DNA from: Venturia oleaginea
Taxonomy: Eukaryota; Ascomycota; Dothideomycetes; Venturiales; Venturiaceae
DNA length: 64,000 bases
Reading direction: 5' to 3'
NCBI GenBank assembly: GCA_013176395.1
Contig: JABMLP010000010.1
Span: forward strand, 930,001-994,000
Shown in pieces: positions 13,461 to 55,583 of the stretch. Position 1 is the first letter of the stretch. The number at the start of each line of letters is the position of its first letter. The notes below the pieces were generated by a model that was not told the DNA's origin, ran no database searches, and saw only the letters and a program-made list of their open reading frames with translations. The translations under genes were made by a program, and so were the position numbers.

Positions 13461-15304
13461 GAGTGTGGACCCCAGATATGACCCAACCCCAGATATGACC
13501 CACGAAAATCCTCCAAAGCGCATGCTAAACGCGTTATCCCCACCAATGCCTTCAAAATCATCCAAAAAATCGCCGGATTACGAAGTTCAACTATCAAAGG
13601 CTATTTATGCACTACAAAATAAAGACTTTTCGTCTATTAGGGCTGCTGCAAAGTTCTTTCAAGTTGATAACAAAACACTACAGCGCAGGCTGAACGGCGG
13701 CTTGACGAACTCTACCAGCCACGAAATGACCCAAATTCTTACCATCGCGGAAGAAGATACTCTTGTACGCTGGATTAAGCGATACACAAATACTGGAACT
13801 CATATTACCAACCCGTTGCTCAAAGAGCTCGCAATTCATATTCGACACGCACGCGTCACATCTTATCCTACCTACCACCCCACGCTTCACTATCAACGAT
13901 AAATGGATCCAGCGCTTTCAAAAAAGACATCCTGAGATAGCAGGAGTATATGCTCGTCAGCTAGAGCATGTACGCAACGAGGGGGTAACATATGAGCATG
14001 TAAAACGCTGGTTTGACGCAGTCGGAGAGATGCTCCAGGAGCATAAGTACGATCCTGCGCATATGTGGAATATGGATGAGGCTGGATTTGGTATTGGCGA
14101 AGAGCAGGCGTTGAAAGTGCTTGTACACCTCGACAGTACACAGAAGTACAAGGTGATCGGAGGCAAACAGGAGTGGGTAACAGTGATTGAGTGCATCAAT
14201 GCCGCAGGCGAAGCGCTGGCGCCGCTCCTGATATTCAAAGGCCAGGACGTTAATACGCGATGGATCAATGAATCATCACCTCTGGGATGGCACTTTGCAA
14301 CAAGCAAGAATGGCTGGACCTCGAATAACCTTGGGTTGGCGTGGTTAATCAATGTTTTCGACCCTCTTACCCGCGAGAAGGCTGCAGGTCGCCAGCGTTT
14401 ATTTGTCGCGGATGGCCATGGAAGTCATATCCAGGGCGATTTTATTGCCTACTGCATGGAGCATAATATTGATCTCCTAATTATGCCTCCTCACTGCTCA
14501 CATATACTACAACCGCTTGATGTAGGCGTGTTTGCGGCGTTTAAACGGGCCCATACTATCGAAACGCATGCGATCTCCCGGCTCAGTTCACAGCGCATCC
14601 CACGCTCAGAATGGATTGAATTACTCTCTCGTGCACGCGAAAGGGCTATGAGCAAGGAAAATATCCTTAGTGGATGGCGTGGCACCGGCTTATGGCCTGC
14701 GCTTCCTATGCGAGTACTCAGAGGGCTTCCGAAAGACTCACCTATACCGGCTCCACAACCAATTACACCACGCGCAATAACTACTCTCGATCTCTCTTTA
14801 CTACAGAGCTCCCCTCCAGAAGTAGTTGAACTATCAAAATCAAATAAAAAGTTCATAGAGTCGTTGCGCGAGTGCCATGCCGTTGTTTCGCCGGTACGGC
14901 GCTATGCAGAGCGTATGACACGCCTATGCGACTCTCAAAATGCAACCATTGCAATTCAAGCTAAACAAATAGCTGAGCAATCCGAACTTTTGCGGAAGCG
15001 AAAGAAGGCTAAAAAGGGTAAAAGAGTTCGATTAGAGGGTGTTGCGGTCCATTCGACTACGGAAGTGTTGCGTATAGCCCGCGAGGAGGAGGCGCGCGTT
15101 GAAGCAAAAAAGCCACGGGGGCGCCAACGCAAAGTTATTATAGTTGAGACTAGTTCGGAGGAGCAAGATGAGGATTCTGAGGATTTATTAGGTAGTTTTA
15201 TTAAAACGCCAGTGGCACGTGGGCGGCGCGCAGTGTTCTCACATGTCGAGGTTTGATTTTCGTGGGTCATATCTGGGGTTGGGTCATATCTGGGGTCCAC
15301 ACTC
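13461..15304 (+). mobile_element. pogo/Fot-like DNA transposon 1 (1,844 bp)
   Basis: A complete element with 50-bp terminal inverted repeats identical over their whole length (13461-13510 and 15255-15304). It is flanked by the TA duplication typical of Tc1/mariner-pogo insertions (13459-13460 and 15305-15306). Each repeat contains the 16-bp word CCCCAGATATGACCCA twice at 17-bp spacing. A single transposase fills the interior, and its stop codon TGA lies at the inner edge of the right repeat. Identical repeats and few lesions imply recent insertion. Confidence 0.95.
13495..15256 (+). pseudogene. pogo-like transposase with one frameshift
   Basis: A DDE transposase that would bind the element ends and cut and paste it. 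The N-terminal part (13495 to about 13855) holds a psq-type helix-turn-helix (YEVQLSKAIYALQNKDFSSI..AAAKFFQV) and the start of a CENP-B-like HTH. The rest (about 13856-15256) is one frame over. It has PRFTINDKWIQRFQKRHPEI, then the catalytic blocks NMDEAGFG, LFVADGHGSH and ILQPLDVGVF. The last two catalytic aspartates are 35 residues apart (DD35D). A Lys-rich tail follows. The frame changes by +1 near 13840-13870 in CACGCACGCGTCAC, a slippery-looking repeat, and no GT-AG intron fits. The first ATG lies inside the left terminal repeat. It is either a single-lesion pseudogene or, less likely, a programmed frameshift. Confidence 0.88.
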
Positions 15305-24530: not shown

Positions 24531-24535
24531 AAAAA
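24531..24535 (-). terminator. RNA polymerase III T-run terminator
   Basis: On the minus strand a run of five T follows 12 nt after the tRNA discriminator base, preceded by TTTC. This fits a Pol III terminator. Confidence 0.75.
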
Positions 24536-24583
24536 GAAATGACCATTTGATCGCGCCCGGGCTCGATCCAGGGACCTTCAGTG

Positions 24584-24614
24584 ATCAACGCAAGCTCGCC
24601 CAGCAGACGGTTTA
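24584..24614 (-). other. Canonical tRNA intron, 31 nt, at 37/38
   Basis: Interrupts the anticodon loop immediately 3' of position 37, the standard site cut by the tRNA splicing endonuclease. Excision restores a 7-nt loop with anticodon TAC. Confidence 0.85.
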
Positions 24615-24641
24615 TGTAAGACTGACGTGATAACCAACTAC

Positions 24642-24693
24642 CTGAACGGATATTAGCGAGTGATGGCGATTCGGTAGAGTAGGGATCACTTAC
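24642..24693 (-). other. 52-nt spliceosomal-type insert in the tRNA D-arm
   Basis: Starts GTAAGTGATCC and ends TTCAG, with GCTAATAT about 12 nt before the end, so donor, branch site and acceptor all match this genome's mRNA introns (42-67 nt). Exact removal joins TGGT to GTAGTTGGTTATCAC and restores the D-arm. The trinucleotide GTA occurs at both edges, so the precise boundary could shift by up to 3 nt. Confidence 0.75.
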
Positions 24694-24704
24694 ACCACGC
24701 GACC

Positions 24705-30150: not shown

Positions 30151-31258
30151 ACGTGTTTCACCATTCACTTGGCCACCCCAACCACTAAATCTCAAGTCAT
30201 CGTGCGATAAACCTCCCACCAATACAGCTTTTATTAAAAGAATTCTAAGAACACATTCTTTACGTATTTGGGCATCGATTAATCTTATGACCTTGAATAC
30301 CGCAGCCACTACATGTTGGTAATGCTCGCTGTCGTACGACGACTTCCTGATCTTGAACACTATCTCTAGAGCTATTTTCGCATCCCTCGACCAAGAACTG
30401 ACCCTGTTGAGCTTGTAAAACGCCTCCATATGCAATATATCGTCTAAGATACTGTTGCTTCTGTTTTCGTCGTTGGTTCTCTGTACGAAGCTTCCTATTC
30501 TCTTCTGCAAGTATTACTGCTGAATTCATCGCGACTTGATATCCTTTGATGAGTTAACCAATTGCTTGACTACTTGGGCTCTGAGATTGGCGATGAAGAA
30601 GATTTCGGACGAGCTGAGCCTGCTGCTCAAGCTGAGCTATCGTACGAGGAGTTTCTGACGTCCACTGTGGCGCTACTCCATGGGGTGTACCTGGTGGTGA
30701 GGGCGTCTCTTCAACACGCTGAAACCACGCGTTGATTGTCGCTGGATCTTCGCATTTTGCACGCTGTGAATGGAATTTACGATTCCACTTCGTACAAAGC
30801 TCCGGCTGAGCGTTGATGAAGCGGGATACCCAGTTCTTCCCGACTAATGACGGTGGAGGATTCGTACCGCGTTTTTCGAGTAAAGCGTTTGCCATTCGTC
30901 GTACGTCGATAATTTGGGGCGGAAATCCTCGTCGATCAAGGTCTAGGATCCACTGAACCAGAGCCTGCTCTTCATGTATTTGTAACTTTCTCTTTTGGTG
31001 GTTAGATTCGCTTCGTGGTTTACCACCTTGAAGACGAGACTGAAGTGTAGATCGAGGAATATCGTACGACGCTGAGATTTGACGTTGACTTAAATTTGGA
31101 TTCGTTTGAAAGCTCTGCTTCGCAAGAAGTAATCTAGCCTCTTTGCAAGCCGATCCGGGGGTTGGTGTTGACATTATCGCGATAATTGTACGAAGGGATT
31201 AGACTTTTTGGTTGGATGGCCAAGTGAGTGGGGTGGCCAAGTGAGTGGTAAAACACGT
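30151..31258 (-). mobile_element. pogo-like element 2, internally deleted (1,108 bp)
   Basis: Terminal inverted repeats start ACGTGTTT at both ends, and both are flanked by TA (30149-30150 and 31259-31260). The outer 34 bp match with a few substitutions (TTTCACCATTCACTTGGCC against TTTTACCACTCACTTGGCC). The right repeat carries two copies of CCACTCACTTGGCCACC at 17-bp spacing. In the left repeat the second copy has decayed. The interior encodes only the ends of a transposase. Confidence 0.88.
30260..31174 (-). pseudogene. DDE-less pogo transposase derivative with zinc knuckle
   Basis: One frame runs from MSTPTPGSACKEARLLLAKQ through a psq-type HTH (LSQRQISASYDIPRSTLQSR) and a CENP-B HTH (HEEQALVQWILDLDRRGFPP, then LVGKNWVSRFINAQPEL). 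At INAWFQRVEE the whole catalytic domain is missing, and the sequence jumps to TPSPPGTPHGVAPQWTSETP. A single TAA then interrupts the frame. After it, IKGYQVAMNSAVILAEENRK continues in the same frame to a C-terminal CCHC knuckle (CSGCGIQGHKINRC). The stop is one C-to-T change from CAA (Gln). The remnant keeps the DNA-binding half and the knuckle but cannot catalyse transposition. Confidence 0.85.
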
Positions 31259-37622: not shown

Positions 37623-39461
37623 ACGTAATCCACCATCAAGCGGTACACACCATCGAGCGGTACACATCACCGAGCGGTACACATTCTCGTATCGTCATCA
37701 ATTACTCTATTATGCACCAATATTCCTATCTATATTTCTGACAGTTGATTGCAAAATGGTCACCACTGCGACAAATAAATCAAGTAATTACAATATTCTC
37801 CTCTTCATTTGGTGGTTCTTCCTCAATATAAGGCTCTTGATCAACCTGGTTACTGCTGATAACCGAAGCTTCTTTAGAAAGTTAAAGTAAGCTTGAGCCC
37901 TCTGCAACAGTTAAAGCGCTTGATTGACTAATACATCTCCTTTTTAGTTGCCTCTTTTCGCTTCTGCCTCTCATTTGCAGCCCTTAATTTCTCATTTTCC
38001 GCAGCTAGTAAAGCGGCGCCTTGCATCGCGATCTGGCAGCCCTTGACAAGCTGATTAAGGGCCTGATCTGTTGGTGTTGGTGGACTTTTTGAACGTCTCT
38101 TAAGATAGCCTTTGATTATAGCTACCTGCAGCTCTAACTGGGTTAGATTCTGAGGTGTTTCTGGTTGCCATTGCTCTTGTTTGCGGCCAAGGGCGCTGTA
38201 GGGGTAGATGGCCTAATCTGGATGGTTGAAAGTACCTGATCTGGATCAAAAGGTACGAGACCGGCAGCAGTGAAGCTGCGTTGAATATTGCTTAGTGTGA
38301 GGGCACTAATTCGAGCAATTTTAAAGGCGTGAAGGAACTCAATTTTGTCGATATGATTTATGCCGAGCCTCATATATTCCGAGACTTGGTGGCCATAGGT
38401 ACGCTTGAGGACCGAAAAACAACCAATTTCGAGAGGTTGAAGAAGATGTGATGAATGCGGTGGCATACAAAGAGTAATAATCATCCGGTCTGCACAAAAT
38501 TGATCAAATTCTGGCGTTGCGTGGCTGCCGTGGCCATCCAGAATTAGTAGTCGATAACTACCAACCTTTCTTGCAGCTGTATTTGGCTCGAAAACCTCTT
38601 TTAACCAATGTAATCCAAGCTTGTCATTAGTCCATCCATTTGTACTCAAAGCGATTGTCCAATCAGGCGGTAGATTGTTGTTTTCGTACCAAGATGATAT
38701 ATGTACCTTGCCTTTGAAGATCACCATCGGCGGGAGGCTCCAACCCAGCGCATTGATCGATTCGATTGCCGTAACCCATTCGCGATCGCCAGGCTGTAAT
38801 TGAGGTGGTCTGCCACGCCTATCTGAGGCAGTAACTACCCGTGAGGTACTTGCAAGGTCCATTGCAAAGCCAGTTTCGTCGAAGTTGTAGATATCGTTAT
38901 TGAGGATGCCGTATTTAGCGATTGTGTTTTGTACAAGCCGAAACCAGGCCCCAATAAGGGCTGGATCTTCGCATCTTGCCCTTTGATTATCGTAGCTGCG
39001 TGAATATCGCGATTGAGGCTAGGGCGGCGGTTGATGTATCGCTGAGGCCAATTGACACCGATTTTGCAATCTGAGCCTACACGCTGCTCGAGTACGATTT
39101 TTGCCGCATCGCGTACCCCAGTAACGGTCAATGGATAACCTCTTTCATCCATAGATAGTATCCAATGCTCAACGACCTCCTCTTCCGTATCCGTAAGCTT
39201 TTGGCAATTTGGGCGCGAATCGACGCGTGAAGCGCGTCCGCGAAGGCGGGAGGCAAGGGAAGTAAATGGGACAGAATAGGCATCAGCGGCCTTTCGAATA
39301 CTTGGAAAATGGCCTTTCAAATAAGCCTCATGAGCAAGGAGTAGTTGACCCTCTTTCTGGGCCTTTGTATTGACTAGTTGTGGTGGCATTGTGGGTTAAT
39401 CGATGAGGATACGAAAATGTGTACCGCTCGGTGGTGTGTACCGCTCGATGGTGGATTACGC
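37623..39461 (-). mobile_element. pogo-like DNA transposon 3 (about 1.84 kb)
   Basis: Terminal inverted repeats begin ACGTAATCCACCATC (left) and GCGTAATCCACCATC (right), flanked by TA at 37621-37622 and 39462-39463. The left repeat contains three copies of a 17-bp motif (core GAGCGGTACACA), the right only two. The repeats end in TTCGTATC or TCTCGTATC. The interior holds a degraded transposase on the minus strand. Confidence 0.88.
37928..39389 (-). pseudogene. pogo/Fot-like transposase with two frameshifts
   Basis: It begins MPPQLVNTKAQKEGQLLLAH, with a psq HTH (FPSIRKAADAYSVPFTSLAS) and a CENP-B HTH (EEEVVEHWILSMDERGYPLT). The frame shifts near 39005-39015 and continues as YDNQRARCEDPALIGAWFRL, then NDIYNFDETGFAMDLASTSR, which carries the first catalytic Asp. 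LLILDGHGSH gives the second. In the third block, LQPLEIGCFSVLKR, Glu replaces the Asp usual in this family (35 residues from the second). A further frameshift near 38165 leads to ETPQNLTQLELQVAIIKGYL and a C-terminal coiled coil ending at 37928. There is no zinc knuckle. It is non-functional as it stands. Confidence 0.87.
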
Positions 39462-47379: not shown

Positions 47380-49466
47380 ATGCTCCTCAGTCAACTTTCT
47401 TTACGGCGATTGCAGCTCTCAGTCCACGCCTCGCGCCGAACACCACCTTGGAGAGCATCTATACAATGGACGCGACACGCGTCTGCAGCAGCAGCAGTAT
47501 CACCAGCGATCCGCGACCAGGGCTACCACATCCAGCTTCGTCCTTATCAAGAGGAGTCGATTCAAGCTGTACTCTCGAGTCTTGAGAAGGGACACAAAAG
47601 GCTTGGACTTTCGCTAGCTACAGGGAGTGGCAAGACAGTATGTACTTTGTCATTTCGATATGAGGAACCATGGCTAATGACTGTGCAGGTCATCTTCACC
47701 CAATTAATCGATCGCGTCCCTCCCCGAAATGCCGCGGCAAACCAGACTTTGATACTGGCCCATCGCCAGGAATTGGTGGACCAGGCATATCGCCATTGTG
47801 CCCTTGCATACCCGGATAAGCGCATTGAAATTGAGCTAGGAAAGTCTCATGCGAGTGGAGCCGCCGAAATCACTGTTGCATCCATGCAGAGTATAACCTC
47901 CAGAGACCGCATACAGAAATATGATCCTAGTGCGTTCAAATTGGTCCTGGTGGATGAAGCGCATCATATAGTGGCTCCCAAGTACCTAGACATCCTGGAG
48001 CATTTTGGACTTAGAACACTGCAGGATAATTCTCCTGCTCTCGTAGGAGTGTCAGCAACAATGTCAAGATTCGATGGCCTGAAGCTGGGGACCGCCCTGG
48101 ATCACATTGTTTACCATAAGTATGTCCGCACTTCAACAGCGTTGTGATGGCATTGTGACTGACAATCTCAAGGGACTACATTGAAATGATCAACGAGAAA
48201 TGGCTTACCGATGTCATTTTCACCACTGTAGCTATTCAAGCCGACCTCTCCAAAGTCAAAAGCAAAGCTGGCGGGGACTTTCAAACAGCTGCATTGTCCA
48301 GGGCTGTCAATACGCCTGAGAACAATGAAGCCACTTTTCTAGCCTGGAAAGAACGTGCTGGAGATCGCAAGGCAACACTCGTCTTCTGCGTCGATGTCCA
48401 ACATATTCACGACTTGACAAACACTTTCCGACGTCACGGCGTTGAGTCCCACTTTGTTACAGGTGAAAGTACCGCTAAATCACGCAGTGACATACTTGAT
48501 GCTTTCAAGCGTGGCGAGTATCCAGTTCTGCTGAATTGTGGTGTGTTTACGGAAGGCACAGATATTCCTTCTGTCGACTGCGTCGTGCTTGCTCGCCCAA
48601 CGAAATCACGAAATCTACTTGTGCAAATGATTGGAAGAGGTGTTCGACTACATCCTGGTAAGGAGAATTGCCACATCATAGACATGGTGTCAACATTGAA
48701 AGTGGGCGTGGTATCAACGCCTACGCTCTTCGGTCTAGATCCCAATGAACTTATTCAAAATGCGAGCATCGACGACTTGAAAAAACTGCTGGAGCAAAAG
48801 ACAGAAGAAGCAAAATTGGCACCAGCACCATCACAAGGTCGAGGTTTTGCAGGAAGCCTCGCCTTTACAGACTACGAGTCTCTCAGTGACCTGATCGAGG
48901 ACATGACTGGGGAGCTACACATTCGCGCAATCAGTCCATTCGCCTGGGTGCAAGTGAGCGACACACGCTACATCTTAACCACAAACAGTGGTAATTACCT
49001 TAGCATTGAAGAGACTGACAACTCTGACGAGCCGTTTCGCGTGGACTACACCGCCAGATTACCGGCACCACTCATCAAGAAGAGTCCATTCATGCGGCCT
49101 CGCAATATTGCGACCGCAAACTCGTTTCAAGACGCAGTGCATGCGGCAGACAGGTTCGCCTCCGAGGTCTTCAACTACATTTTCATTTCGAAAATGCAAG
49201 GCTGGAGACGTGGGCCAGCATCACCATCTCAACTCGAATACTTGAACAAGATTCGGGACAAAGATAATCTATTGGAGGCTGATGATATCACGAAAGGGCA
49301 AGCAGGCGATATGATTACGAAGCTCAAATTTGGGGCAAAGGGGAGGTTCAATAAGTTGGACGCCAGCAGACAGAAGATTCTGAAGGAACAGAGGACGTTG
49401 GAGAAGAAACTGGCTGATCTCAAGGTTCGTGAGAACGTCACTGTTGGGCCGATTGGGGATACCTAG
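47380..49466 (+). CDS. IRC3: Mitochondrial DNA helicase Irc3 (3 exons)
   Basis: Irc3 is a superfamily 2 branch-migration helicase needed for mitochondrial DNA stability in yeast. Introns 47638-47688 (51 nt) and 48120-48172 (53 nt) give 660 aa. The first 40 residues are Arg/Ser/Ala-rich with no acidic residues ([20 protein letters not shown]), a typical mitochondrial presequence. The helicase motifs follow in order: Q-like [12 protein letters not shown], Walker A LATGSGKT (about residue 80), [11 protein letters not shown], the DEAH box VLVDEAHH (about 174), [44 protein letters not shown] and [13 protein letters not shown]. Intron 1 directly follows the Walker A Thr, is a multiple of three and contains no stop. 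The C-terminal 200 residues match no catalytic motif. Confidence 0.9.
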
Positions 49467-51303: not shown

Positions 51304-54300
51304 ATGTCGCTACACTCTTCCCGCTCTCGAGGGAACAAATCGAGAGTCAACAGCATTGTCCGCGAAGGCCGTGTCCGCAGAGAATCCTCCTACACACGCA
51401 AGAAGGTTGTCGGTCGCGAAGATGCCTACCTCTATGCCCTCCGAGTGGCCTACCTGTCCTACCTCCTCCAACCACGGGCGAAGCGTGTGCAACATGTCGC
51501 TGCTCCGAAGCCAGTCATACGCTCCTCGACCTCTACCATGGACCTCATGAAGGATTTCTCCCTGATCCGGGACTCGAAAAGTACAAAGTTTCCGCATGCC
51601 TTTATGGGCTCCTTGGACAAGAGGATCACAGGTGTGCTCATTGGGAAAGAGAAGTTGCCGGAATATAACGATTCCCTTGTCAAACGTACCTTTGGATATT
51701 TTTTGAACGAGTTCAAGAACCCGGCATTTCGCAAGAACATGGAAAAGGACCGAAGAGTGGAAGATCTTTTGTTGATCTTCTATTCGAGTGCCACGAAAGA
51801 ATTGCAGAAGGGCAAGGCTCCGGACGACGACAGCTGGAAGTTCATGGTTGACCGGCATGTTGCACTTTTCATACGTTTGATCAGCTCTATCCTGAAGGAC
51901 CACGACTGGGCGAAAGAGAGGCCTGAGCTGGCGAACAGATTAGCAACGATGGAGAAAAAGCTTCTTGTACACGATCACGATCTCTCGGCGGAATCCACGC
52001 GGAACGGAGGAGCGGGTGGATACTCCGTAGAGGTCGAAATCCCACTCAGCCACGAAGTGAAAGACATGCCCTTGGCCTTGGTCGTTTCGCGAATTTTCAA
52101 CATTCCGTATGGACAGGTACAAGAGGATATCAACAAGAACATGTCCCAGTGGACGGAGAGGGCAGCGCTACAGGATTTGAAGATGTACCAGACGAGCTTG
52201 AGCATGAACACTCGGAAGACTCTCAACAGCGAGGATTTTGATACTGAGGAAGCATACGAAGCATGGAAGAAGTCGGAGGCCCCTGACATCTCTCAAATGA
52301 TGCTTGCCATCGTGCAATCGAATATGGAGCTTGCGAAAAGCACACCAGGCACCAGTCTTCCTCAGTTCAAGGCTCAGGGTGAACCCACAGGCAAAGATTC
52401 GGGCTACTCGGAGATGTCAAGAAAACTTTCGGACCAGGCAGAAAACTCATATGTCATTGATCAGCCTGTTGATATGAGCGGATTCCCGCTCGGGCACGAG
52501 ACAGTTCAGCGAGATGAGCTTGAGTCCTTTGTTTTTATACCCCCAGATCCACGTGCATACTATCGTGCGGTTTTGAAGGTTGCCCTTACTCACGATATGC
52601 AGGACAGTGAACTTCAGGCTCCGGAGGAAGGTTCGGGCATCAAATTGCTTTCCAAACAGTCAACAGAGCTGCTCACGGAAATTGCATTGCGCTGGCGAGT
52701 GCCGCAATTTTCGAGGCCGGTCCTGTTTCTCGACGTCGTCCGGGAGTTGTACCAGAGCCAGGAGATCGATCTCAATATTCTGGATGCTGCTTTCACCTAT
52801 GTGAAAGAGCCGCCAGTCGAAGTCAAGAAAAACAACAGAAAGAGCATGATGGTGCAGGAGACCGCCTTCGACTGGCACAAGTGGACAGTCACGGATTATG
52901 CCCTGTACCAACAAGCCCTTGCTGCAATACACGATTCATTACAACGGGATCTTTTTGAACTCATGTTGCGATGCTACGAGAAGAAACGACCACCGATTGA
53001 ACGCATCATGCTGGTGCTGGAAGAACACATCTACAGCGACGAACTCTTCCCGAAAGGCCCAGAAGATCTCGACGAGTACACTGCACAACTCGAAGAGAGT
53101 CTCAAAGAAAAGGCCGCAGAGATCTATCGCGACTTGCTTGCTAAGAATATCCCCGAAAGCGCCGACCAGTGGGAATTCTTCCACGTCATGCAGCTTGGGA
53201 AAGACGTCGTCAGTTTGGCTGAAAGGATACAGAAGAGATATCGAAAGTCGCCAGCAGTGATGGGCGTCAATCCATTGATGATTCTTATCGGTGAGGTTCT
53301 ACCTTCGTATGCTGCCGATGCGAGAGATTTGGTTGAGCGCATCATGGCGGTCGCGAAAGAAAAAGGCGAGGAGGTTCCGCAGCAAGATGGATTTGACCTT
53401 TACAAAGAACTTGTGGAAATGCGTCGGGTTCACGCTGAAGTCTTGCCTGACGTGCCTTTTGCGTTCCATATTGAAGGGTTACTTCAAGAATTTGTCTGGC
53501 GCTGGATTGAGCAGACCAATGCGATGATCACCGGCTGGGTCGAGAATGCCGTGAAGCAGGATACTTTCGCCACCCAGGCCCAAAATGGCAATGGTACTAT
53601 CGATGAAATGAGGCACAGCGTTTCCATCATTGATATCTTCCGGTCTTTCAACCAGTCCATTGATCAGATAGTACAGCTAAACTGGGACGACGATTTTCAG
53701 TATGCTAAGTTCATGACTGCTTTGTCCAAAGCAATTGGATCTGGCATAGCTAGATACTGTGAGCTGTTGGAGCAGAAGTTCTCCAAAGAGCTTGAAACTT
53801 TGACACCGGAGCAAGAAGCTGCTGCTCAGCAAACCCGCCAGGAACGATGGATGCAGTTTGCAAAGGATACTTGGGCAAATCAGGACAAGATGGAGCCTTT
53901 CCAGTTTTTGCCAGAGGTAAGCTCCCCCGATCAGAAGTGGGAATGGGATATTATGCTAACTGATTGCAGTCACTGGTCAAGTTGAATAACATCGAATATG
54001 CCATGCAACAGCTGGATAAGCTTGAAAAGGACATCAATGTTGATGCGTGCGCCGCGGTCATCCAGAAGAATGAGCCACCTCCTCTTCAGCGCCAGCGCAG
54101 GATCGAGAAGTACGTCTTTACCATCAAGATCATTGAGGCGGAAGATCTCAAAGCCTGTGATATGAATGGTCTAAGCGACCCTTACGTCGTTCTTGGTGAC
54201 GAATACCAAAAGCGACTGGCCAAGACTCGTGTCATTTACAAGAACTTGAACCCACGATGGGACGAGACGGTGGATATCCTTACTACGGGACCTTTGAACA

Positions 54301-55583
54301 TCATTGCAACTATTTGGGACTGGGACACGCTCGGCGACCACGATTGTGTTGGTCGTACATCCTTGAAATTAGATCCTTCGCATTTCCGTGATTACCTTCC
54401 CCGAGAGTACTGGCTGGACCTCGATACTCAGGGTAGACTACTTCTACGAGTTAGTATGGAAGGCGAGAGGGACGATATACAGTTCTACTTTGGCAAAGCC
54501 TTCCGACATCTGAAAAGGGCAGAGCGAGATATGACCCGCAAGATTACAGATAAGGTGAGAAGATATGCGCACATGACCCAAGTGCACTACTGACCTAAGA
54601 CCAGCTCTCGGCCTTCATTCACCATATTCTCTCGCCCCAACGACTTCGGAGCTTATTGTCTAAACCTATCACGATGCAAGCTGTCACTGGCGCACTTTCT
54701 TACTTCCAGAAGAATCGAGCTGCGCCTATCGCACCGCAGGGTCCATCCCAGATGGACATCACGAACGCTCTGAAACCTCTTTTCACTTATTTTGATGAAA
54801 ACTTTGCGATAATGAAAGAAACTTTGACGGACACGTCTATGATAATGGTAATGACAAGGCTGTGGAAGGAAGTTCTCTTGACCATTGAATCCCTTCTTGT
54901 CCCACCACTTTCCGACAAGCCTTCACTCCAGAGATCATTGACACGACAGGAACTCGATATTGTTTTCAAGTGGCTCCAGGTGAGTACAATTCTTATTCTA
55001 GTTGCAACCATGAGGCTAACCCGTATTCAAGCTCCTGTTTGATTTCTTCCACGCGGTAGATGAAGAGACGGGCGTGGCAAATGGAGTACCTATAGACGTG
55101 CTTAAATCTCCAAAGTATCACGAGTTGCAAAATCTCAACTTCTTCTACTTTGAAGACACCGAAGACCTGATTCGTACATCGGAGACAATGGCGTCTGCAA
55201 CACATGCTCGTCAACAGGAATTGCAGGCACGTTCCAATCGGTTTAGTGCTCCTCCTGTAATGGGCTCGGGCGGTCATGCTTTCGGGGGTGCTGCAGGTCT
55301 GGTTGGTCTGCCTACTCGGCGGCACAAGACCATTATGTTGAGTCACAACCTGGGCACGATGAAGCAAGCTAAAGAAGAGAAGCGAAAGCAAGCCCAAGCC
55401 GAGCCCAGTGACGATATGATTCTTCGAATTCTTCGAATGCGGCCAGAGGCAGAACGTTATCTCAAAGACAGGAGCCGACAAAAGGAGCGTCTTGCTGCAG
55501 CGGCTGCCGCTGAGATGATTGTTCGACAGAGTCTAGCTGGAGGAGGAGCTGGAAAGATGGCAGGAATCTTGCCGAAGAGATAA
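51304..55583 (+). CDS. Ync13-like Munc13/UNC-13 family protein (4 exons)
   Basis: Fission yeast Ync13 acts at the plasma membrane in exocytosis/endocytosis balance during cytokinesis; that role is inferred here. Introns 53917-53969 (53 nt), 54555-54604 (50 nt) and 54980-55031 (52 nt) all preserve frame, giving 1,374 aa. The basic N-terminus has YALRVAYLSYLLQPRAKRVQ. A long helical region (about residues 430-870) carries MUN-type blocks such as RDLFELMLRCYEKKRPPIER, EFVWRWIEQTNAMITGWVEN and FRSFNQSIDQIVQLNWDDDF. A C2 domain follows at about 915-1010 (YVFTIKIIEAEDLKACDMNG, SDPYVVL, IWDWDTLGDHDCVGR). It has several Ca-binding Asp positions. A second helical MHD2-like part and an Ala-rich tail (MKQAKEEKRKQ...MAGILPKR) end the protein. 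MSLHSSRSR is the first Met after a stop. Confidence 0.9.

Follow-up and report, generated by a model that had tools for sequence, protein, structure and literature searches.

A spliceosomal-type intron in the D-arm of a Venturia oleaginea tRNA-Val(TAC) gene, one of a probable genome-wide set in nuclear tRNA genes

The 64-kb stretch of DNA analysed here (the window) comes from Venturia oleaginea, a member of a genus that belongs to the Dothideomycetes, and carries on its minus strand a tRNA-Val(TAC) gene whose three exons are separated by introns of two different kinds. Its features, in window coordinates, are as follows.

24548..24704, minus strand: the whole tRNA-Val(TAC) gene of 157 nt (sequence; ARAGORN with the insert present and with it removed)
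24694..24704, minus strand: exon 1 (positions 1-11), which pairs with the 3' acceptor strand and is the same in the insert-free paralogues L010 and L013
24642..24693, minus strand: 52-nt D-arm intron of spliceosomal type, GTAAGT...GCTAAT...TTCAG (sequence; ARAGORN; Val(AAC) paralogues)
24688..24693, minus strand: 5' splice site GTAAGT (sequence)
24652..24657, minus strand: branch-site motif GCTAAT; its branch A, position 24653, lies 11 nt from the 3' end of the intron (sequence)
24642..24646, minus strand: 3' splice site TTCAG (sequence)
24615..24641, minus strand: exon 2, the remainder of the D-arm and the anticodon TAC (ARAGORN)
24584..24614, minus strand: ordinary anticodon-loop (37/38) intron, 31 nt (ARAGORN; counterparts of 26-27 nt in insert-free Val(AAC) paralogues)
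24548..24583, minus strand: exon 3, the 3' half of the anticodon arm, variable loop, T-arm, 3' acceptor strand and A73 (ARAGORN)
24559..24569, minus strand (C2:954559-954569): B-box-like GGATCGAGCCC, uninterrupted (B-box pattern search)
24531..24535, minus strand: T5 run, a candidate Pol III terminator 12 nt past the gene (sequence)

An earlier note on this DNA had described a 52-nt D-arm insert with GTAAGT, GCTAAT and TTCAG and a 31-nt intron at 37/38; every element of the insert is found on the minus strand, and the second intron is present at 24614-24584. ARAGORN reports no tRNA in the whole 64-kb window and none in the unspliced 157-nt gene, and with the 52 nt deleted it calls tRNA-Val(TAC) with a 31-nt anticodon-loop intron. 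The note's statement that the tRNA folds well after removal agrees with this, the program accepting this tRNA only with the insert out, and excision of both introns leaves a mature tRNA of 74 nt. At E<=1, scanning the window with Rfam brings up no tRNA, the sole entry being a weak snoRNA match elsewhere, and no match of the insert to group I, group II or any other family. The presence of a D-arm insert together with a 37/38 intron in this gene is confirmed. Because GTA stands at both its edges, the insert slides by 3 nt and can be read in four equivalent registers, of which GT..AG is one; these ends are beyond chance, since the paralogues and the genome-wide catalogue described below show the same ends. 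Elsewhere in the window, open frames at 13462-15256 (+), 38143-39395 (-) and 30554-31198 (-) resemble by eye DDE transposases with a helix-turn-helix, amounting to three copies or fragments within one window.

A genome search with the focal locus returns five places, itself included. Three of these (L010, L012 and L013) are tRNA-Val(AAC) genes with an uninterrupted D-arm and 37/38 introns of 26-27 nt. In another tRNA-Val(AAC) gene, L011 on contig C1, precisely the focal site is occupied by a 55-nt insert that reads GTAAGT..ATTAAT..TAG and is otherwise unrelated in sequence to the focal insert. That a second insert should share the base and the ends of the first and differ inside is, on this comparison of sequences, no accident. 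Random decay, which the earlier note had expected to show as varying ends, is not what these two loci look like, the edges of the two inserts being identical. The note had also proposed a search for a tRNA-Val(TAC) gene without the insert, and one is present in our reading of L043 (C16:554125), whose D-arm is free of any insert and whose anticodon loop holds a 24-nt intron; the Thr(TGT) label that ARAGORN gives this locus follows from a differently placed intron.

To place the focal gene in the 46-Mb assembly (61 contigs), tRNA loci were gathered with the Rfam tRNA model, B-box patterns and exon queries, and were then fetched. The resulting catalogue counts 35 nuclear tRNA genes as interrupted, by 45 inserts in total, and spans 12 amino acids. 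Inserts occur in Ser(AGA), Ser(GCT), Ser(TGA), Gly(CCC), Gly(TCC), Gly(GCC), Pro and Val(AAC) loci, in Arg(TCT), Arg(CCG), Leu(AAG), Leu(CAG), Leu(CAA) and Leu(TAG) loci, and in Lys, Met, Glu, Ile, Ala and His loci; Cys, Trp, Tyr and some other isotypes are absent from the catalogue. The fetched loci also contain 59 insert-free nuclear tRNA genes (ARAGORN; one or two may be false), such that 35 of some 94 genes, about a third, are interrupted in a sample biased by searches aimed partly at interrupted genes and by a first-look step in which 40 of 92 candidates were scored. Isotype labels are based on similarity to paralogues and on reading by eye. Three further loci were left out as degenerate (L240, Pro; L251, Gly-TCC; L181, Leu-TAA), as were L131 (C7:1014060) and the plus strand of L082, odd tRNA-like stretches whose T-arm and acceptor are intact and whose anticodon arm is unreadable. 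L246, L250 and L173 are doubtful and were kept, L246 and L250 having a degenerate look.

The inserts fall in the D-arm or D-loop (22 of 45), the 5' side of the T-stem (17), the T-loop (3) and the anticodon stem (3). Most genes (26) have a single insert, eight have two and one has three, the last being L194, a Leu(AAG) gene that has a 37/38 intron as well. In a tRNA-Gly(GCC) gene (L249, C2:164650-164900) two D-arm inserts leave between them a 4-nt exon, TGGT. Comparison with an empty site can fix the boundaries unambiguously: in Gly(TCC), L157 reads GGGGTTATCATT where L171 reads GGGGTT, 55 nt of insert and ATCATT. With a ceiling of 300 nt on anticodon-loop introns, ARAGORN recognises 9 of the 35 genes in their interrupted form and 33 after insert removal, L250 and L173 failing, so that a cloverleaf after intron removal is found for the focal gene and for 33/35 of the catalogue; random removals of equal lengths give a tRNA call in 378 of 1400 trials. 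The amino acid called differs from our label in three of the 33 (L237, L221 and L245), where the 37/38 intron is placed differently.

Several other features were seen at the fetched loci. ARAGORN places very short anticodon-loop introns of 6-10 nt in L035, L036, L052, L037, L038 and L051, and in L227, a Lys paralogue, the intron there is about 46 nt long. At L224 (C23:763701-764006) a second, partial copy of the 3' part of Leu(TAG) sits immediately downstream of the gene and has its own GT..AG-like insert, a local duplication. L058 (C19:646119) and L059 (C60:820614) are near-identical tRNA-like stretches, one at a contig end, that resemble by eye an organellar or bacterial-type tRNA-Ile(GAT), and L030 and L031 repeat an AT-rich tRNA-Arg(TCG) in inverted orientation on the 18,945-base contig C58, perhaps part of a mitochondrial genome or a linear plasmid. 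A dispersed repeat with a B-box-like GGTTCGAGCCC is represented by L062, L063 and L067, two copies facing each other in L063.

All 45 inserts have GT..AG ends in a register that we chose among equivalents, and the probability of this by chance, with the sliding of registers allowed for, is ~10^-97, a rough figure that treats the inserts as independent. Their 5' splice sites follow the consensus GTRNGT, with A at +3 in 36, G at +5 in 40 and T at +6 in 29 of the 45. All inserts except L126-D and L248, 43 in number, have a YTRAY motif whose distance from the end is 5-20 nt (10-12 nt in 34 of them), compared with a mean of 8.3 and a maximum of 19 in 2000 shuffles of the interiors; the stricter CTRAY at 8-14 nt is present in 35 of 45, against a shuffle mean of 1.6 and a maximum of 7. 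For comparison, four mRNA introns were located in the window by protein alignment.

53917..53969, plus strand: mRNA intron, 53 nt (alignment to Venturia nashicola protein P0001)
54555..54604, plus strand: mRNA intron, 50 nt (alignment to a Venturia protein)
54980..55031, plus strand: mRNA intron, 52 nt (alignment to a Venturia protein)
48120..48172, plus strand: mRNA intron, 53 nt, in an IRC3-like helicase gene (alignment to P0123 and P0124)

All four are GT..AG introns that carry CTAAC or CTGAC close to their 3' end, and share size and signals with the inserts, which are 47-89 nt long with a median of 52 nt, against 50-53 nt in the mRNA introns; the note's statement that the focal signals sit where those of mRNA introns do agrees with this. 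Among the window's proteins, the UNC13-like one is 95% identical to that of V. nashicola, with the next named matches including Tothia and Verruconis, and the IRC3-like helicase is 88% identical to its best match, 85% to V. effusa and 83% to V. nashicola. Judging from the sequences, we conclude with a probability of roughly 0.86 that the inserts are U2-type spliceosomal introns in tRNA genes, forming one genome-wide set that includes the focal insert.

The positions of the inserts would also suit atypical tRNA introns of the kind found in Cyanidioschyzon merolae and nucleomorphs, which form a bulge-helix-bulge and are cut by the tRNA splicing endonuclease. They resemble the sites of the C. merolae tRNA-Ile(UAU) introns, given as 12/13, 37/38 and 53/54 in the available part of PMC9602550, and the available part of PMC4090602 describes D- and T-arm introns in nucleomorphs, those of Guillardia theta that are non-canonical measuring 3-24 nt. 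One insert, in the Met gene L237, takes the strict bulge-helix-bulge (hBHBh') fold in register, but it is the only one of the 45 that does, and the focal insert does not; with the register left free the fold is available to 4/45 (8.9%) versus 38/900 shuffles (4.2%), a small excess in small numbers. The strict test is weak, in that 39 of 40 of the genome's own 37/38-type introns fail it too, and a relaxed eukaryotic recognition is compatible with these counts. A bulge-helix-bulge leaves the GT..AG ends and the branch motif at a fixed distance unexplained, and we regard this origin of the inserts as most improbable.

A run of at least four T, a candidate Pol III terminator, is present within 60 nt downstream of 31 of the 35 genes, compared with 20% of random 60-mers from the window; eight of the 35 have fewer than 20 nt available downstream, and all eight are positive. 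The inserts worsen the match to the A box in 9/35 genes and to the B box in 5/35, where random placement would do so for 10% (A box) and 8% (B box) per insert, and in the focal gene the A box loses one match (one mismatch). A first impression that the inserts spare the promoter is not upheld by these counts. The B box is no worse in 15 of the 17 genes with T-stem inserts, in part a built-in effect of an intron end in AG followed by an exon that opens with G or GG. Inserts in the T-loop, three in all, break the B box, and no run of at least four T is seen in the 35-60 nt readable downstream of them; these three genes may be dead. Within the inserts themselves T runs are depleted, with T>=5 in 0/45 (shuffle mean 3.2) and T>=4 in 4/45 (p 0.007). 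This was set aside as evidence, since none of 10 mRNA-intron-like candidates in the window has such runs either and the depletion is therefore not specific to tRNA inserts; some of the 10 may be false, the reversed control yielding four.

Exons and inserts of the interrupted genes differ in conservation. In 16 of 27 pairs of interrupted genes of the same isotype, exon identity (first 33 plus last 38 nt of the spliced gene) is 0.92-1.00; the other 11 pairs are those with L194 (0.72-0.74), those with L250 (0.76-0.81) and those within Ser(AGA) (0.86-0.89). Identity between inserts in 32 comparisons is 0.40-0.62 against a null mean of 0.48 and a 95% point of 0.56, which only three comparisons exceed (the Met pair, 0.60; L069/L133 D, 0.62; L133/L238 D, 0.59); inserts were paired by their order within the gene, and some Ser(GCT) comparisons thus join different sites. 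L252 and L253 illustrate the pattern, with an exon identity of 1.00 and inserts at the same two sites that are 0.53 and 0.48 identical. The gene anatomy, the splice signals and their constancy over diverging interiors are observed directly, as is the presence or absence of inserts among paralogues. Near-identical exons, drifting interiors and steady splice signals suggest working introns in working genes; gene conversion confined to the exons is an alternative and less simple account of the exon identity.

The same data bear on whether the interrupted copies are instead dead genes, intron or intron-like DNA having landed in dispensable tRNA copies whose unspliced or mis-spliced transcripts are degraded. 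Some interrupted copies are degenerate, among them the three T-loop genes with a broken B box and no run of at least four T, and several isotypes, such as Val, Met, Lys, Ala and His, also have insert-free copies, as do Ser(AGA), Ser(GCT), Gly, Leu(CAA) and Leu(TAG). Against this, splice ends are intact in all 45 inserts, and high exon identity in 16/27 pairs with inserts near the null suggests that selection or conversion acts on the exons while the inserts are present. Moreover, every known Leu(AAG) (5/5), Leu(CAG) (2/2) and Arg(TCT) (2/2) gene carries inserts, and no insert-free gene of these three kinds was found in a non-exhaustive exon search for Leu, Pro, Gly(CCC), Arg and Ile (16 candidates, all scored). 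That search missed the known interrupted Leu genes L151 and L194, which marks it as non-exhaustive; an empty copy would be easier to find than an interrupted one because it would give a longer match to the exon query. Taken together, these points make it very unlikely that the interrupted genes are dead as a class. If a full census upholds the pattern, the cell would be unable to make its Leu(AAG), Leu(CAG) and Arg(TCT) tRNAs without removing inserts.

As to where such introns come from, the earlier note had offered two readings, that a Pol III transcript serves as a spliceosome substrate or that an intron-like element landed here recently. The first has the support of the sequence, genome-wide. 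The second does not: a genome search with 27 inserts (26 of the final 45 and that of the later-dropped L181) gives self matches only for 27/27, with 22/22 candidates scored, and an introner-like or mobile-intron origin is for this reason unsupported, there being no multi-copy family among the 27. Common descent of inserts at the same site was also considered and set aside, with a mean z of 0.60 in 77 same-site pairs of the same family versus 0.58 in 139 other pairs; since the two groups are alike, insert ancestry is unreadable from the sequence. The two Met inserts have a z of 3.5, and one unrelated pair has 3.6.

Seven U6 places turned up in the genome, six of them with one or two clean introns of spliceosomal type at several different positions.

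C12:1178041, C36:59791, C2:1121956, C23:188433, C16:523955, C34:504658 and C12:932486: U6 genes L138-L144

Six of the seven give a normal-looking U6 after removal of seven introns in all. Six of these introns are GT..AG and have CTAAY at 10-12 nt; the other is GC..AG and has no YTRAY in its last 25 nt. The seventh, L140, is without a clean 3' end, seems to be a damaged copy and was left out of the collection. U6 is a Pol III transcript, and the cell must therefore already splice one, its U6 genes carrying introns. Reverse splicing has been suspected in Pol III small RNAs since U6 introns were found. Combining these lines, we somewhat favour a reading in which essential tRNAs need the spliceosome, all Leu(AAG), Leu(CAG) and Arg(TCT) genes found being interrupted; in which up to three inserts and a 37/38 intron would put two unrelated machines to work on one Pol III precursor; and in which introns are still being gained in tRNA and U6 genes, possibly by reverse splicing.

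For the focal gene we propose that Pol III would transcribe from the internal promoter up to the T run, giving a pre-tRNA that would hold both the D-arm spliceosomal intron and the ordinary 37/38 intron. The spliceosome would recognise GTAAGT, GCTAAT and CAG and join position 11 to position 12, and we infer a corresponding removal for the other inserts. The cloverleaf would form only afterwards, at which point the tRNA splicing endonuclease would presumably cut out the 37/38 intron and ligase join the halves.

tRNA introns and spliceosomal introns have so far been treated as separate worlds with separate machines. If the proposed pathway is right, pre-tRNAs are spliceosome substrates, two splicing pathways are ordered on one RNA, and tRNA finders miss genes interrupted in this way. 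Intron gain would become testable as well, in that conserved tRNA bodies locate insertion sites with a precision of a few bases and the genome often has a paralogue with the site empty. Searches of open-access papers, a scope that takes in little of the subscription journals, turned up no account of tRNA genes with spliceosomal introns, and one may exist elsewhere. Within the papers covered nuclear tRNA genes are without precedent as hosts of spliceosomal introns, although spliceosomal introns of small RNA genes are already known.

The closest comparisons are with other introns of tRNA genes and with spliceosomal introns of other non-coding RNA genes. Canonical eukaryotic tRNA introns lie at 37/38, and the focal gene has one of these too (31 nt); they are removed by endonuclease and ligase, whereas the D-arm insert has spliceosomal signals. 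Spliceosomal introns in ascomycete rRNA genes were reportedly described by Bhattacharya et al. in 2000 (cited in PMC2586383); these likewise interrupt a non-coding RNA gene, the host there being rRNA and here tRNA. According to the part of PMC8450103 available, no more than one intron occurs per eukaryotic tRNA gene, and for tRNA the literature consulted also speaks of introns of archaeal type. The tRNA introns of C. merolae and nucleomorphs are similar to the inserts in their D- and T-arm sites and in occurring several per gene (available parts of PMC9602550 and PMC4090602). However, C. merolae introns have bulge-helix-bulge junctions according to the former, while 44/45 inserts here lack the strict in-register fold, and the Guillardia nucleomorph introns of 3-24 nt described in the latter contrast with inserts of 47-89 nt that are GT..AG and mostly have a branch motif. 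Introner-like elements, linked to spliceosomal intron gain in Dothideomycetes in the part of PMC4457414 available, are multi-copy, unlike the 27 inserts searched, which have no similar copies; a term search of that paper finds no mention of tRNA or Venturia. The nearest relatives in kind are the U2-type introns of fungal U6 snRNA and U3 snoRNA genes, the latter with intron-bearing and intron-free paralogues, and the available part of PMC5832005 (2017) names U3 and U6 as the sole small structured RNAs in which interruption by an intron was known to be frequent. As in those genes, the inserts here are probably introns of U2 type, sit in small structured RNA genes and are present in some paralogues and absent from others; the hosts differ in being tRNA genes, with up to three introns in addition to the 37/38 intron (L194).
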